Positions 28,221-34,558 of a stretch of 40,980 bases of DNA are shown here, piece after piece (the first letter of the stretch is position 1; every line of letters begins with the position of its first letter). Under the pieces are notes generated by a model. That model saw nothing but the letters and a program-made list of their open reading frames with translations. It made no database searches and was not told the origin of the DNA. The stretch comes from Bacteroidales bacterium (GTDB lineage: Bacteria > Bacteroidota > Bacteroidia > Bacteroidales > UBA932), in assembly GCA_028691975.1 (NCBI GenBank), contig JAQUYF010000011.1, forward strand, positions 1 to 40,980, written 5' to 3'. The translations under genes and the position numbers were made by a program.

Positions 28221-28254
28221 GAGAGGCCCTTCCATGGAAAGAGCCTCTTTTTTT
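28221..28254 (+). terminator. Intrinsic terminator of the histone-like gene
   Basis: AGAGGC (28222-28227) pairs with GCCTCT (28243-28248), with an inner self-complementary stretch CTTCCATGGAAAG extending the stem. It is followed by TTTTTTT up to 28254. It lies 23 bases after the stop at 28198 and reaches the last bases of the convergent lipoprotein gene. Confidence 0.8.
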
Positions 28255-28720
28255 ATACCGACTGTTGAGGAACAACCACCCCCGTTTTTTGGAGTTCATT
28301 CCATAACCAAAGATTTCCGTCAGAAACCTTTAAGACTATAAATTTAACTATAAGCATTGTCTCCTCCTCTTCAGCAAGACGATATGTTATCCTGCAGACC
28401 GTCTCCTGATCGACCTCAGATGGAATAGACTCTGTGTAATTGATATGCATATATTTATTTTGGTCATCTGTCTGTATCCTGTATGTCTTTCTCGCACTGC
28501 TATATGCCTGCTGAAATAAATCATCATCATATTCAAGCACACAACTGCCTTTTATATAGAGGCCTATGTTGGTTGAGGACTCAAACAGGATGCGTTCCGC
28601 AGACTTGACAACCACAGGATCCGGTGGCTCCGGTGGTTCAGGTTTAGGTCCGGGGCACGACACAGCTGTTGTGATAGCCACAATAAACAATAAGAATCCT
28701 ATTTTAATCAGTTTTTTCAT
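28253..28720 (-). CDS. Small lipoprotein of unknown function, paired with the M6 peptidase
   Basis: The 155-residue product has a lipoprotein signal (MKKLIKIGF... ending AVSC, Cys22) followed by a proline-rich spacer 'PGPKPEPPEPPDP' that probably lifts the folded part from the membrane. A domain of about 115 residues with alternating hydrophobic and polar residues suggests beta structure. I recognise no family. The gene starts one base after the M6 peptidase stop, so the two are almost certainly co-translated, and it may act as an accessory, inhibitor or anchor of that enzyme. That role is inference. Confidence 0.75.
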   Translation of the reverse strand: MKKLIKIGFLLFIVAITTAVSCPGPKPEPPEPPDPVVVKSAERILFESSTNIGLYIKGSCVLEYDDDLFQQAYSSARKTYRIQTDDQNKYMHINYTESIPSEVDQETVCRITYRLAEEEETMLIVKFIVLKVSDGNLWLWNELQKTGVVVPQQSV

Positions 28721-28721
28721 A

Positions 28722-30785
28722 TCAATTTAGTGTAACTGAAAGTCTCTTCTTCAAAATTTCCACAGAGCCGTCTGTGTATTGAATTTCCGCCATCACAATG
28801 TATATGCCTGCCTGCTCAAATGGAAATATCAATTCAGAACACTGTATTCCATTAATAGTCCACGTAATAGAGTCAGTCTCCTCCACCAAGTTTAAAACAT
28901 TAAATCGAAGCTCATCTCCAACTTTATAGCTTTTATCCATCCCCGCTATCAGTGGGAACTCTGATACCATCTTCATCGTCTGAAACGGCATCGTAAAAAT
29001 CTTTCCCTTTTGCGAGCCGAGAACATAATATAACAAACAATCATAATTGGATCCTGATTTCAGGTTGGTAAAGTCATATGAATTGCCATATACAGCCACA
29101 GTATCAGCCTGTATATCAATATCTTGCTTCCAGACAACATTCCAATATCCGGTACTTGTCTTGTCGACAGTCCACTGCAACTTTGCAGTTGTCTGATTAG
29201 GCTCTATCGAGTAACCGATTATTACAGGAAGATTCCACGTATTGTCTTGAACAACATTTATCAACATTCCTTTAGATCCTTTGATTATACCTGTCAACCC
29301 ATAGCCGACTCCGTTGCCTGACCAATCTTTCAAAGGAAAAGTTTCGGCAGAATGAATGGCCGAGACATTACCCGTGCCGGGAAAAAAAGCCTGAGACTCA
29401 TCCGTCATCTCTCCTCCATTTGACGGAATAATCATTGCGCACTGATGTGCTAAACAAGCATTTACCGCATTTGTCCGCCATCTCATGGCCGCACTCATTG
29501 AGCCGGCGAAATTGGTTGTTTTATCCACATGATATACCACAAGTCCGTCTCCCCCGATATATTTATCCCACTTTGTTCCATCCCTGTATTCGATATAAAA
29601 ATTTTCCTGTGAATACGAAGTCATGAGCCTATATCCCAAGCTAACTGAATACACCGGCAATATTTCCAATTGATGTTGTTCCGACCTCAGTGGAGTCATA
29701 TATGTTACTCCTATCAGCTCTCTTTCAATAATATTCAGATATGGAGGCGTCTTCCCCCCATTATTATAATTGCCTCTGTCCATTATTGAAATGGGGCCAA
29801 ACAGTCCTTTTGACAAGCCTTCGGTCTCTCCATTAACATCGTACATATCCAACAACCCGAGAAAGTGGCAATATTCATGGGCGATAGTTCCAATTCCGGC
29901 GGGAGTTTTCCCCGATGCGCCGGAAAATTCGGAATAACACGAGAAGTTCGCAATCTTTTTACCGTCAAAGTATATTTGAGAACCGGAGATATTCCACGAC
30001 TGCGGCCAGATGGTATTATCACCTCCACCCTCAGCTTCATTATAGCCTGCAAAAATTATAAAAACATTATCCACTATGCCGTCATTGTCATAATCATAAT
30101 TGGCAAAATTCACACCGTCAGCATCGGCAAGCGAACATGCCTGAGCAACAAGTTCCTTGATATTTGCATCCGTTCCGGTAGTGGAATTACCTCCGTAGTA
30201 GCTATGGCTCTGGGGAAGAGTCACGACATTGCAGACATCGAAAGTAAAGTTGCACACACTTCCGAGGTTATCCCTGAAATAATCTCGCACACTGCCGGTA
30301 GCCCCATTGTCCGAATAATTCAACTGATTGAACAAGTTGAATATATCGGATCTGATCGATGCCGAAGTAAATTTAATATTTGAAAATTGGACGGGAATAA
30401 CAATTGTCTTTATATTGAAATCAGCTTTTGTTAAAACAATTGATTGCATATCAACAGTCCTGTACAACATTCTTTGCTCTACATTGCGCAAAGGGACACT
30501 CTTTGTAAAGCCCTCCTTTGAACTTGAAGTAACCCTTCTGTCAGAAATGATTTGGATGCCTGCTTCATATTTTACATAATAATAGTAGCCGTCAGCTCCC
30601 TGCGCTACTACATAGCCATCAAGAGTCGTTTTATATGAAAAAGTTTCATCTCCGAATATTCTAATAGCAAGAGAAGTACCGTCCGGTAAAGACACATTAA
30701 CCGGGTCGGGGTAGCTCCTCACACCAAAAGCAATTGTCGGGAGAATGGTCAGGATCACTATTATCAAGCTCATCCGCTTTCGCAT
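28722..30785 (-). CDS. Secreted M6-family metallopeptidase (immune inhibitor A-like)
   Basis: The 687-residue protein has a signal peptide (residues 1-21). An N-terminal prodomain-like region precedes a catalytic domain with HEYCHFLGLLDMYD (303-316), the HExxHxxGxxD zinc signature of the M6 family. 'DYDNDGIVDN' (231-240) resembles a calcium-binding loop. The C-terminal 150 residues look like beta-sandwich modules, the last resembling a PKD-type domain ('FPFEQAGIYIVMAEIQYTDGS'). There is no obvious type IX secretion sorting domain at the end. M6 peptidases of other bacteria degrade host or environmental proteins. It is co-transcribed with the small lipoprotein that follows. Confidence 0.92.
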   Translation of the reverse strand: MRKRMSLIIVILTILPTIAFGVRSYPDPVNVSLPDGTSLAIRIFGDETFSYKTTLDGYVVAQGADGYYYYVKYEAGIQIISDRRVTSSSKEGFTKSVPLRNVEQRMLYRTVDMQSIVLTKADFNIKTIVIPVQFSNIKFTSASIRSDIFNLFNQLNYSDNGATGSVRDYFRDNLGSVCNFTFDVCNVVTLPQSHSYYGGNSTTGTDANIKELVAQACSLADADGVNFANYDYDNDGIVDNVFIIFAGYNEAEGGGDNTIWPQSWNISGSQIYFDGKKIANFSCYSEFSGASGKTPAGIGTIAHEYCHFLGLLDMYDVNGETEGLSKGLFGPISIMDRGNYNNGGKTPPYLNIIERELIGVTYMTPLRSEQHQLEILPVYSVSLGYRLMTSYSQENFYIEYRDGTKWDKYIGGDGLVVYHVDKTTNFAGSMSAAMRWRTNAVNACLAHQCAMIIPSNGGEMTDESQAFFPGTGNVSAIHSAETFPLKDWSGNGVGYGLTGIIKGSKGMLINVVQDNTWNLPVIIGYSIEPNQTTAKLQWTVDKTSTGYWNVVWKQDIDIQADTVAVYGNSYDFTNLKSGSNYDCLLYYVLGSQKGKIFTMPFQTMKMVSEFPLIAGMDKSYKVGDELRFNVLNLVEETDSITWTINGIQCSELIFPFEQAGIYIVMAEIQYTDGSVEILKKRLSVTLN

Positions 30786-30856: not shown

Positions 30857-30864
30857 TATCTTTG
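30857..30864 (+). promoter_or_regulatory. -7 box (TATCTTTG) of the envelope glycosylation operon
   Basis: TATCTTTG ends 16 bases before the ATG at 30881; a TTG lies at 30832-30834 with a spacer of 22 bases. It is the only promoter-like box seen for the four overlapping genes up to 34558. Confidence 0.55.
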
Positions 30865-30880
30865 CAATAAATTACTGTTT

Positions 30881-31615
30881 ATGAATCAGACATCGCAATA
30901 TCTGTTTACGATAATCGTACCATTTTACAATGAGATAGAGAATATTCTCCATCTTGAAAAGAAACTCGGCGATTATCTTAACATCTCTACTATCGACCGT
31001 ACTTCTGTTCTCTTTGTAAATGATGGTTCAACTGACGGAGGTGGCGAGCTCGTAAAAGAAGTGTGCGCCCGGAACAAGAATTTTTTCTACTTGGAGTTGA
31101 AAAAAAATGGCGGTCTTAGTGGAGCCCTCAAAGCCGGCATTGACCACTGTGAGTCAAAGTATGTTGGATATATCGATGCCGACCTGCAAACAGATCCTGA
31201 TGACTTTAATTTGCTGCTCAAATATATAGAAGAATACTCTATGGTCCTCGGCATCAGATCCAAAAGAAAAGATTCATTTGTAAAGAAAGCTTCTTCTGTT
31301 ATTGCCAATGGATTTAGGCGAATGATGACCCACGACGGAGTATCCGACACAGGATGCCCGCTCAAAGTCATGCATACAGACTACGCAAAAAAGATTCCGA
31401 TGTTTACCGGAATGCACCGGTTCCTGCCGGCTCTGATTTTGATGGTCGGAGGCACAATTAAGCAGATCCCCGTAAGGCACTATCCGCGCACCGCCGGAAC
31501 AGCTAAATACCACCTGTTTAACAGACTGATTGGGCCACTTAAGGATTGTTTCGGCTTCCGCTGGATGAAAAAAAGATATATTGATTACGTAATTAGCAAT
31601 ACCAATCTGTCATAA
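30881..31615 (+). CDS. GT2-family glycosyltransferase (polyprenyl-phosphate sugar synthase-like)
   Basis: The 244-residue GT-A fold protein has 'TIIVPFYNE' (10-18), 'VLFVNDGSTDGG' (43-54) and the DxD motif 'YIDADLQTDP' (97-106). It lacks the C-terminal membrane helices of many GT2 enzymes, resembling dolichol-phosphate mannosyltransferase-type catalytic domains. These use a nucleotide sugar to glycosylate a polyprenyl phosphate at the inner face of the membrane. In this operon it could make the lipid-linked donor consumed by the downstream GT39 enzyme. The stop shares one base with the next start (TAATG). The sugar is not decided by the sequence; a uronic acid is inferred from the epimerase at the operon's end. 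Confidence 0.88.
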   Translation: MNQTSQYLFTIIVPFYNEIENILHLEKKLGDYLNISTIDRTSVLFVNDGSTDGGGELVKEVCARNKNFFYLELKKNGGLSGALKAGIDHCESKYVGYIDADLQTDPDDFNLLLKYIEEYSMVLGIRSKRKDSFVKKASSVIANGFRRMMTHDGVSDTGCPLKVMHTDYAKKIPMFTGMHRFLPALILMVGGTIKQIPVRHYPRTAGTAKYHLFNRLIGPLKDCFGFRWMKKRYIDYVISNTNLS

Positions 31616-32253
31616 TGGACAAGTGGCTTATTTACGCATTGGGGTTTATCGCTCAAGGTCTCTTTTCTGCCAGAACCCTTGTCCAGTGGTTTTTGTCCGA
31701 AAAAGCTAAAAAAGTAGTTTCTCCCACCATATTCTGGGTTTTAAGTCTTATTGCATCATACATTTTTTTCATTTACGGATGGCTCCGCAATGATTTTGCC
31801 ATCATGCTGGGACAAGTTATTTCATATTATGTCTATATCTGGAATCTTGGCGCAAAAGGAGTTTGGAGCAAAATGGGGCCGACTTGGAGATGGCTCTTAG
31901 TCTCCATCTTATTGCTGACTCCGATAGTTGGGATCTGCTTTATGACAGGCGAGACACAGTCAGTTATTGATGCTCTCTTCAAGAATAGAGATATTCCTCT
32001 GTGGCTGGTATTGTTCGGCAGCGCAGGCCAGGTAATTTTCTCCTTGAGATTTGTCTATCAAATGATTTACTCAAAGATTAAGGGTGAATCATTGCTACCC
32101 GCAGGATTTTGGATTATCAGCCTCGTAGGCTCCGCAACCATTATTTCATATGGAATTATCAGACGTGACCCTGTAGTTATATTGGGGCAATCATTCGGCT
32201 TTTTATCATACACCCGCAACTTATATCTATGGATAAAAAACAACAAATCTTAA
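31615..32253 (+). CDS. Tandem LAB_N (lipid A biosynthesis N-terminal domain) membrane protein
   Basis: The 212-residue protein has about six membrane helices formed by two copies of the LAB_N domain (PF07578). In copy 1 (about 8-85), 'GFIAQGLFSARTLVQWFLSEK' is followed by 'ISYYVYIWNL'. In copy 2 (about 125-208), 'GSAGQVIFSLRFVYQMIYSK' is followed by 'FGFLSYTRNLYLW'. The paired copies share Q.x(4)R..xQ and a terminal Y/W-rich helix, so this is an internal duplication of a three-helix unit. LAB_N was named from a domain fused to LpxB and has no assigned activity. The 25-base overlap with the next gene indicates tight co-expression. A role in handling a lipid-linked sugar is inferred from neighbours. 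Confidence 0.88.
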   Translation: MDKWLIYALGFIAQGLFSARTLVQWFLSEKAKKVVSPTIFWVLSLIASYIFFIYGWLRNDFAIMLGQVISYYVYIWNLGAKGVWSKMGPTWRWLLVSILLLTPIVGICFMTGETQSVIDALFKNRDIPLWLVLFGSAGQVIFSLRFVYQMIYSKIKGESLLPAGFWIISLVGSATIISYGIIRRDPVVILGQSFGFLSYTRNLYLWIKNNKS

Positions 32254-33587
32254 GATTTTTCATCTACTTTATTTGCTTCCTGCCTCTGATGCTGTTTCGC
32301 GACATCACCCCCATGAACGAGTTGAAATACCTGAGTATCGCAGATGAAGCTCTTCGTGACGGGCACATTTTCACACTGTTCAATCACGGTGTAATATATG
32401 CCGACAAGCCACCGCTGTATATCTGGATTGTGATGCTTTTTAAGTGGATGCTCGGGTACCACTCGACTTTTATACTGGCACTTTTCTCTCTGATTCCCTG
32501 CATGATTACGCTGTATATCTTTAATAAATGGTGCTGCAAAGAGTTGAGCAGGAAGTTTCTTATTGCTTCGGAATTAGCTCTTCTTACTTCAGTCTATTTC
32601 CTCGGAGGCTCTCTCGTGCTGAGGATGGATATGCTTATGACTATGTTTATTACTTTAGCCATGTACACATTCTACCGCATTTACAAGGGAGACAACCGGC
32701 CTTGCCTCAAATTTGCCTTCGGATTATATATCTTTCTATCCATATTTTCCAAAGGGCCGGTAGGCATTATGGTACCGCTCTTCTGTGTCCCCGTATTCCT
32801 TTTGATCAAGAGACAGATTCGGACCATCGGCAAATATTGGGGCTGGAGGACGTGGCTGGTTCTTGTTATTCTGTGCGGCATTTGGTTTACTTGTGTATAT
32901 ATTGAAGGCGGGAATGAGTACCTGGATAACCTTCTCTTCCACCAAACTATAGACCGGGGGATAAATGCTTTTCACCATAAAGAACCATTTTATTACTACT
33001 TTTACTCCATCTGGTACGCGATGGCTCCATGGTCTGTCCTGACCATCGGGGTAATCGTATATGGTCTCTGTAAAAAGGTAAAAATGAGTGAATTGACTCA
33101 ATTTATGCTGATTACCGCCGGAACTATATTCGCCATGATGTCAATAGTCAGTGCAAAACTTGTTATTTACATCCTGCCTTGTTTCGGATTTCTCAATTAC
33201 GGAGCATTTTTGGTTTTACAGCAGTTGAACTGTAAAAAATTTACCGAAAGGGCAAGAAAGGTGGTAATCTATAGTTCATTCGTTATTCTGATTGCAGTAT
33301 TTGTCGCAGGATGTATGGTGAGCAAATACAACTATAAAATCGGATACAAAGAGGTATGCAAAGAGGCTCGCGCTACCGCAGACGAAGTCGGAGTAGAGGA
33401 CTTTTACTATTACGACGTCAAAGCAGGAGCCGGTATGGATGTCTTTCTCAATCACAACATAGTAGAAATTACTCAAGAGCAGTTTAATAATCCTCAAAGT
33501 CTCATGGGGGATGCCGACAAAATTATTATCTTTGCGAAAGAGGACAATGTTGTACGATATAAGCTCTACTTAAAAAAGGAACAATGA
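32229..33587 (+). CDS. GT39-family (ArnT-like) integral membrane glycosyltransferase
   Basis: The 452-residue protein has about eleven membrane helices and the start typical of GT39/GT83 enzymes. A first periplasmic loop holds 'DITPMNELKYLSIADEAL' (equivalent to the usual 'PDE.RY.EIA.EML'), and 'YADKPPLYIWI' is the conserved DKPPLY motif. Such enzymes take a sugar from polyprenyl phosphate and add it to lipid A or other acceptors at the periplasmic face, as ArnT does with aminoarabinose. The usual first Asp-Glu pair is Asn-Glu here, so catalytic details may differ. The C-terminal periplasmic part is short (about 90 residues). It overlaps the LAB_N gene by 25 bases and the epimerase gene by four. 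Confidence 0.9.
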   Translation: MDKKQQILRFFIYFICFLPLMLFRDITPMNELKYLSIADEALRDGHIFTLFNHGVIYADKPPLYIWIVMLFKWMLGYHSTFILALFSLIPCMITLYIFNKWCCKELSRKFLIASELALLTSVYFLGGSLVLRMDMLMTMFITLAMYTFYRIYKGDNRPCLKFAFGLYIFLSIFSKGPVGIMVPLFCVPVFLLIKRQIRTIGKYWGWRTWLVLVILCGIWFTCVYIEGGNEYLDNLLFHQTIDRGINAFHHKEPFYYYFYSIWYAMAPWSVLTIGVIVYGLCKKVKMSELTQFMLITAGTIFAMMSIVSAKLVIYILPCFGFLNYGAFLVLQQLNCKKFTERARKVVIYSSFVILIAVFVAGCMVSKYNYKIGYKEVCKEARATADEVGVEDFYYYDVKAGAGMDVFLNHNIVEITQEQFNNPQSLMGDADKIIIFAKEDNVVRYKLYLKKEQ

Positions 33588-34558
33588 AACGGATACTTGT
33601 GACAGGTTGTGCCGGTTTTATCGGCTTTCATATAAGCAAAAAATTATGCGAAATGGAGTATCTCGTCGTAGGGATCGACAATCTAAACGAGTATTATGAC
33701 ATAGCTCTAAAGTATGGCCGACTTGAAGAGCTGAAGGCCATCAAATCCTTTCATTTTGCACAGATGGATCTTCGAGACACCGGCGACTTGCATGAGCTAT
33801 TCGGGAAGTACAAGTTTGACTTGGTGCTCAATCTTGCGGCACAAGCCGGAGTACGGTACTCTTTTGTCAATCCTCAAGCATACATCGAATCGAATATTAC
33901 AGGATTTAACAATATAATCTCTCTTGCGAAAGAGTATAATGTTGCACATTTTATCTATGCCAGTTCCAGCAGCGTGTACGGTAAAAACACAAAAGTGCCA
34001 TTTTCCGAAAGTGACGACATGGAGGGGCAGGTTAGCCTTTATGCTCAAACAAAGCGCGCCAATGAACTTGAAGCTCTCAGATACTCCCAAACATGTGGAC
34101 TGTGTACCACGGGACTGAGATTTTTTACTGTATATGGGCCATGGGGAAGACCAGATATGGCCCCGATGCTTTTTATGGAGGCCATCGCAAACAATCAGGA
34201 GATTGAAGTTTACAACAATGGTGACTTGTGGAGAGATTTCACATACATTGACGATTTGGTCAATGTCGTCATTAAAATCATAGAGACGGATCCGGATTCA
34301 GCTCACCCATACCAAATCTACAATATCGGCAACAGTTCACCTGTTTACCTGCGTGATTTCATCTCCACAATGGAAGAGGTTATTGGCAAGCAGGCAAAAC
34401 AGGTAATGAAACCTATGCAGCAGGGAGATGTTTATAAGACATACGCTGACACGACTCTTATTCTTAATAAATTCGGAATCAGGCCTTCAACCCCTATTCG
34501 TACGGGCATTGAAAGATTGTGGGAATGGTATAGAAAAAAATATTTATTGGAAGAATAA
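33584..34558 (+). CDS. NAD-dependent epimerase, UDP-glucuronate 4-epimerase-like
   Basis: The 324-residue short-chain dehydrogenase-type epimerase has the Rossmann 'TGCAGFIGFH' (7-16). The catalytic set is a serine of 'YASSSSVYG' (125-133) with Tyr153 and Lys157 in 'SLYAQTKRANE'. The stretch 'VGIDNLNEYYDIALK' (29-43) closely resembles UDP-glucuronate 4-epimerases (LpsL/GAE type), which make UDP-galacturonate. The ATGA overlap (33584-33587) couples it to the GT39 gene. If the specificity is right, the operon decorates an envelope lipid with galacturonic acid or a derivative. UDP-glucose 4-epimerase activity is a weaker alternative. Confidence 0.85.
   Translation: MKRILVTGCAGFIGFHISKKLCEMEYLVVGIDNLNEYYDIALKYGRLEELKAIKSFHFAQMDLRDTGDLHELFGKYKFDLVLNLAAQAGVRYSFVNPQAYIESNITGFNNIISLAKEYNVAHFIYASSSSVYGKNTKVPFSESDDMEGQVSLYAQTKRANELEALRYSQTCGLCTTGLRFFTVYGPWGRPDMAPMLFMEAIANNQEIEVYNNGDLWRDFTYIDDLVNVVIKIIETDPDSAHPYQIYNIGNSSPVYLRDFISTMEEVIGKQAKQVMKPMQQGDVYKTYADTTLILNKFGIRPSTPIRTGIERLWEWYRKKYLLEE

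Follow-up and report, generated by a model that had tools for sequence, protein, structure and literature searches.

A four-gene cassette of Bacteroidales with a SWEET-like LAB_N protein: a candidate system for galacturonate transfer to the cell envelope

The Rgt system of Rhizobium and Mesorhizobium adds galacturonate to lipid A and core by means of an LpsL-type epimerase, RgtE and RgtD/RgtF. Another described system is Gtr (GtrB, GtrA, Gtr), in which a GT2 enzyme that makes the donor works with a small membrane protein and a GT-C transferase, and a third is Arn (ArnC, ArnE/F, ArnT). Here, a cassette with likenesses to all three is described from a Bacteroidales bacterium (UBA932), in a stretch of 40,980 nucleotides (JAQUYF010000011.1, assembly GCA_028691975.1) that is called the window throughout. 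Its four open reading frames encode a GT2 transferase, a tandem LAB_N membrane protein, an ArnT-like GT39 transferase and a short-chain dehydrogenase/reductase (SDR) epimerase. Most likely, the cassette is a case of three-component extracytoplasmic glycosylation that includes an enzyme for making the donor sugar. As a whole, it is read as a route in which galacturonate is made, loaded on a lipid, moved by the SWEET-like LAB_N protein and put on an envelope glycolipid, to which a probability of roughly two in three is given.

When compared by its described scheme, Rgt shares with the cassette the presumed order of the chemistry, from uridine diphosphate (UDP)-galacturonate to polyprenyl-phosphate-galacturonate by a GT2 enzyme and then to a GT39-type transfer. 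Unlike Rgt, however, the window cassette is a single overlapping four-gene operon that includes LAB_N, and its GT2 is devoid of membrane helices. The division of labour is that of Gtr, but the membrane part is LAB_N/SWEET-like rather than of the GtrA/SMR or MATE type, the donor is predicted to be a uronic acid, and the transferase is ArnT-like. Similarly, Arn has in common with the cassette an ArnC-like GT2 and a transferase of the ArnT fold, whereas the window epimerase would keep the carboxylate and LAB_N stands in place of the EmrE-like ArnE/F. An aminoarabinose reading of the Arn kind was considered and ruled out, as arnA, arnB and arnD are not among the cassette neighbours (at the locus itself). 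What sets the cassette apart from known three-component glycosylation is its LAB_N/SWEET-like membrane part together with the predicted uronic acid donor.

The epimerase and the donor sugar

The fourth protein is an extended SDR with the catalytic Tyr-Lys pair of that family. Its best match in the PDB is 5u4q (4e-103), which is annotated as a dTDP-glucose dehydratase and which we take to be of the Klebsiella Uge/GlaKP kind despite that label. The matches that follow are the characterised UDP-glucuronate 4-epimerase structures of Bacillus, among them BcUGAepi 6zl6. In such epimerases, the carboxylate of the sugar is contacted by Thr126, Ser127, Ser128 and Thr178, while Arg185 holds the product (PMC7984243, PMC12338863). 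At these positions, numbered as in BcUGAepi (T126, S127, S128, T178, R185), the window epimerase has S, S, S, T and R, so that all five carboxylate-binding positions are kept. The protein is, most likely, a UDP-glucuronate 4-epimerase that would convert UDP-glucuronate to UDP-galacturonate. The type that the first-pass annotation had read from the stretch GIDNLNEYYD thus agrees with the active-site residues.

The sugar could instead be galactose, N-acetylglucosamine (GlcNAc) or another non-uronate, with the epimerase being GalE-like or of the GlcNAc type. The TIGR01179 GalE model does match the window epimerase, though below its cut-off, and the epimerase gene is not always adjacent to the other cassette genes. 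However, the Thr178/Arg185 signature is missing from the genome's own GalE (S, C, T, N, V at the five positions) and UXS (T, S, E, N, N), and also from the GlcNAc-type epimerase WbgU, which, as read from the alignment, has the SSS but carries N and D in place of Thr178 and Arg185. RmlB is likewise without the uronate signature. Separate GalE and UXS genes are present elsewhere in the genome, and since a GalE already exists there, the epimerase of the cassette is distinct from the housekeeping enzyme; together with the active-site residues, this rules out the GalE reading. Furthermore, the signature was found in 14/14 cassette-linked SDRs checked, from three phyla, one clade of which has Ser for Thr178, and a UDP-glucose dehydrogenase gene lies inside a Cetobacterium cassette. 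A non-uronate sugar is, therefore, considered very improbable. UDP-glucuronate is likely to be available in the cell because the genome encodes a UDP-glucose dehydrogenase, Ugd (on C55; nearest to the TuaD model, below its curated cut-off). The uronic-acid reading of the cassette is thus well supported from the sequence side. So is the overall logic first proposed for it, a uronic-acid route with a polyprenyl-phosphate donor and a GT39/GT-C transferase.

The GT2, the LAB_N protein and the ArnT-like transferase

The GT2 protein has 244 residues (PF00535, 5e-26), and its best PDB relatives are ArnC (1.5e-20) and the GtrB-type sll0501 (1e-15). The catalytic domain is ArnC/GtrB-like but is without the membrane tail of ArnC and GtrB; no 19-residue window of the protein reaches membrane level in a hydropathy scan. 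It appears to be a polyprenyl-phosphate sugar synthase, and hexuronate is its predicted sugar.

The second reading frame holds two LAB_N units (PF07578, 1.8e-55), predicted as seven helices in the 3+1+3 layout of SWEET proteins (AF2 model, pLDDT 88.8). When the profile of a single LAB_N unit (A3) was run against all PDB sequences, the matches up to E 10 numbered six, every one a SemiSWEET, with the best at 7e-4; the alignment with SemiSWEET runs the length of the LAB_N unit. The MtN3_slv model matches 12/17 LAB_N units weakly and below cut-off. Among fold matches, PnuC reaches Z 11.9 and SemiSWEET about 9.5 over 85 residues, which is moderate for a helical bundle, and a Foldseek search with the LAB_N model alone returned no significant match (best E 0.2). 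By profile homology and predicted topology, LAB_N belongs to the SWEET/SemiSWEET superfamily. Unlike SWEETs, it has a motif of its own, GQ..F..R...QW..SE, and is genetically tied to the use of polyprenyl-phosphate sugars rather than to free sugar transport. The tandem form is that of Bacteroidota, while in Fusobacteriota and Alphaproteobacteria LAB_N is single and of SemiSWEET size. A hidden Markov model study placed MPDU1, a human PQ-loop protein that is required for the use of dolichol-phosphate sugars by an unknown mechanism, among PQ-loop proteins and regarded the naming after lipid A biosynthesis as arbitrary (PMC3281891). Our literature search, in an incomplete library, found no published account of LAB_N function beyond one mention within the PQ-loop group. 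LAB_N as a part of LpxB was also considered and ruled out: LpxB is a separate gene (C46), and LAB_N in this genome occurs in the cassette only.

Because of the SemiSWEET-only profile matches, the SWEET layout and the PQ-loop/MPDU1 grouping, LAB_N may move or present polyprenyl-phosphate-galacturonate and also anchor the tail-less GT2. It could also be that LAB_N is no flippase and that its role is limited to anchoring the soluble GT2 and linking it to GT39, while flipping is carried out by another protein or occurs spontaneously. This is a serious alternative, not far short of an even chance. In its favour, the GT2 is without the ArnC membrane tail, the genes overlap, LAB_N is fused to GT39 in one locus (L113), and MPDU1 itself has no known mechanism. 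The Bordetella gene lgmD, which may be comparable to LAB_N, can be added here; it is reported to be non-essential (PMC4993483). Against an anchor alone, the LAB_N unit matches only SemiSWEET transporters in the PDB and has the SWEET topology, and the window cassette has no other flippase-like gene.

The third reading frame has no match in Pfam, but it matches the NCBIfam ArnT model (4e-22) and PDB 5ezm (5e-5). Its predicted structure (pLDDT 86) has the ArnT fold, with 5f15 at Z 32.8 and a root-mean-square deviation of 3.6 over 432/452 residues; the next fold stands at 25, and the other GT-C matches include Pmt4, OST, ALG12 and Emb. The protein is, thus, a predicted GT-C transferase of the ArnT fold that would use a lipid-phosphate sugar. 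As ArnT is its nearest relative, lipid A or core is favoured as the acceptor. Galacturonate on lipid A is known in the phylum: in Echinicola, the only Bacteroidota genus found with a chemically proven case, D-galacturonate sits on the non-reducing glucosamine in place of a phosphate, the genes being left for future work, and the lipopolysaccharide is a poor or even inhibitory ligand of TLR4 (PMC8707317). The first-pass annotation expected the cassette to add negative charge; this does not follow, because galacturonate may replace phosphate, as in Echinicola, and the net charge need not rise.

The same donor, polyprenyl-phosphate-galacturonate, might serve another acceptor, such as a unit of O-antigen or capsule, the glycan of a surface glycoprotein or a different lipid. 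GT-C enzymes of the ArnT-like fold are used for lipid A, O-antigen, protein and glycolipids, no gene of lipopolysaccharide assembly flanks the window cassette, and nothing else in the window points to a particular acceptor. Two or more GT39 subfamilies accompany the same GT2 and LAB_N, and some genomes (G165, G182) carry a further window-type GT39 elsewhere; acceptors may, therefore, vary. On the other side, the closest match in both fold and sequence is ArnT, a lipid A transferase, the Echinicola case is of this phylum, and the genome has LpxB. An acceptor of this other kind is judged unlikely, though it retains some weight. By analogy, lipid A is a plausible acceptor, with core or another envelope glycan also possible.

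Layout and linkage of the cassette

The four reading frames lie in a row on the + strand and overlap by 1, 25 and 4 bases, and the families assigned to them at first reading have all been confirmed (Table 1). The box TATCTTTG, of the Bacteroidetes TAnnTTTG type, sits 24 bases upstream of the first start codon. The first-pass annotation had named it as promoter-like, and its spacing is kept, with a TAnnTTTG box at -25/-26 of GT2 in the two syntenic relatives L037 and L038. The downstream alr (34601) is preceded by a separate TAnnTTTG box of its own. In L037 and L038, the closest relatives, the cassette again lies between the M6 protease and alr; a scan of the contig collection for close relatives of the window locus gave four loci only. 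The neighbours in the window are the M6 protease, alr, holA and others. The M6 protease and the SCPGP-type lipoprotein, divergent from the cassette, occupy the same place in both relatives.

Table 1. Features of the cassette and its upstream flank, in window positions
Feature	Positions	Strand	Basis
Promoter-like box TATCTTTG, Bacteroidetes TAnnTTTG type	30857..30864	+	Consensus match, not proof
GT2, predicted polyprenyl-phosphate hexuronate synthase	30881..31615	+	Pfam/NCBIfam, PDB relatives, hydropathy
Tandem LAB_N protein, SWEET-like; predicted to flip or present the donor	31615..32253	+	Pfam, predicted fold, profile search
ArnT-like GT-C transferase, predicted to transfer hexuronosyl groups in the periplasm	32229..33587	+	NCBIfam, PDB match, predicted fold
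UDP-glucuronate 4-epimerase, predicted UDP-galacturonate maker	33584..34558	+	PDB matches, active-site residues
M6-family metalloprotease, then small SCPGP-type lipoprotein	28253-30785	-	TIGR03296, 1e-42 (protease)

Linkage was studied in 198 genomes of the order, by association tests that ignore phylogeny. Full LAB_N proteins occur in 15 of them (of 18 matches at E 1e-3, one partial and two weak ones were set aside). A close GT2 (E 1e-50) is found in 12/15 LAB_N genomes vs 0/183 others (Fisher p 8e-17, not phylogeny-corrected) and adjoins LAB_N in 11. The window-type GT39 (E 1e-50) is present in 7/15 vs 1/183, and a second ArnT-like subfamily stands beside LAB_N at most of the remaining LAB_N loci. 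For the uronate epimerase, the counts are 12/15 and 74/183 (p 0.005). An intact LAB_N-GT39 fusion of 753 residues, with GT2 directly upstream, occurs in L113. In another locus (L034 9026-11221, genome G032), the frame of such a fusion is interrupted by an internal TAG. A LAB_N/GT39 locus with a TGA was also seen (L033 8138-9942, G111), with a transposase-like reading frame nearby and GT2 on another contig; both states represent decay or rearrangement of the cassette.

The cassette is not confined to the order: other Bacteroidota have it, and so do replicons of Fusobacteriota and Alphaproteobacteria. In Cetobacterium (Fusobacteriota), GT2, LAB_N, epimerase, UDP-glucose dehydrogenase and GT39 stand in one row, which would cover every predicted step from UDP-glucose onward. 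The pairing of GT2 with LAB_N is seen in many families, and the epimerase is the variable component. GT2 and LAB_N are, thus, the conserved core and the epimerase is an optional module. LAB_N had been regarded at first as an addition to a Rhizobium-like scheme; this did not hold, since GT2 and LAB_N (with an ArnT-like GT39) form the core in Alphaproteobacteria and Fusobacteriota as well. In a tree, the cassette-linked SDRs do not form a single clade but are spread over several, some deep forks being weakly supported, and uronate epimerases, therefore, probably joined the cassette more than once.

A record of Phocaeicola massiliensis (L115, OY726024.1 22911-29827) carries the full row GT39-GT2-LAB_N-epimerase. 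A gene resembling a Bacteroides tyrosine recombinase lies a few hundred bases away, because of which the cassette may be mobile. Envelope modifications often lie next to two-component systems. Genes of two-component regulators adjoin cassettes of several phyla (L116, L117, L118, L122, L113), which suggests a regulated envelope modification.

The proposed route and its meaning

In the proposed route, Ugd, encoded elsewhere in the genome, would make UDP-glucuronate, which the cassette epimerase would convert to UDP-galacturonate. While the identities of the genes, their folds, the uronate signature and the linkage are results of this analysis, the steps that follow, with their lipid carrier and acceptor, are drawn from homology. 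The soluble GT2 would charge polyprenyl phosphate with galacturonate on the inner side of the membrane. LAB_N, co-translated with GT2, would anchor it at the membrane and/or flip polyprenyl-phosphate-galacturonate outward. The ArnT-like GT39 would then move the sugar onto a lipopolysaccharide glycolipid in the periplasm, most likely at the lipid A/inner core.

Several observations weigh against this route. The co-occurrence of LAB_N and the epimerase is weak at the genome level because the UGAepi family is common without LAB_N (the 74/183 above), and many cassettes are without an adjacent epimerase, including the syntenic L038, whose genome carries a partial copy at the end of a contig. Two LAB_N genomes, G072 and G176, have no close GT2; in these genomes, lone LAB_N genes (L031, L032) lie beside fabF/rnc-like housekeeping genes with no close GT2 or GT39 adjoining, and possibly have a different role. 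The reported dispensability of lgmD, a possibly comparable gene, has already been mentioned. Moreover, the catalytic Asp55 of ArnT belongs to a DE motif (PMC7801869, PMC12041525), and its place is taken by Asn30 in the window GT39 (NE for DE) and by Asn in all window-type GT39s. The two other GT39 subfamilies of the cassettes also lack Asp there, while Glu31 is nearly invariant; Glu31 may be the catalytic base, or this loop may be misaligned by one residue.

The cassette provides testable candidate genes for the lipid A galacturonate of the phylum, and a record of a gut Phocaeicola has it as well. The proteins that flip lipid-phosphate sugars have long been a gap in the field. The SWEET-related LAB_N is a concrete candidate for such a protein, since some genomes fuse it to the transferase and since, in the sample studied, it is associated with the donor synthase. 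The joint claim that LAB_N is a SWEET-fold flippase class (or an MPDU1-like use factor) for polyprenyl-phosphate hexuronate and that the cassette holds the missing lipid A galacturonate genes of Bacteroidota is put forward tentatively, and we lean somewhat to the doubtful side of it. LAB_N would, in addition, provide a link to MPDU1, the human protein needed for dolichol-phosphate sugars (PMC3281891).

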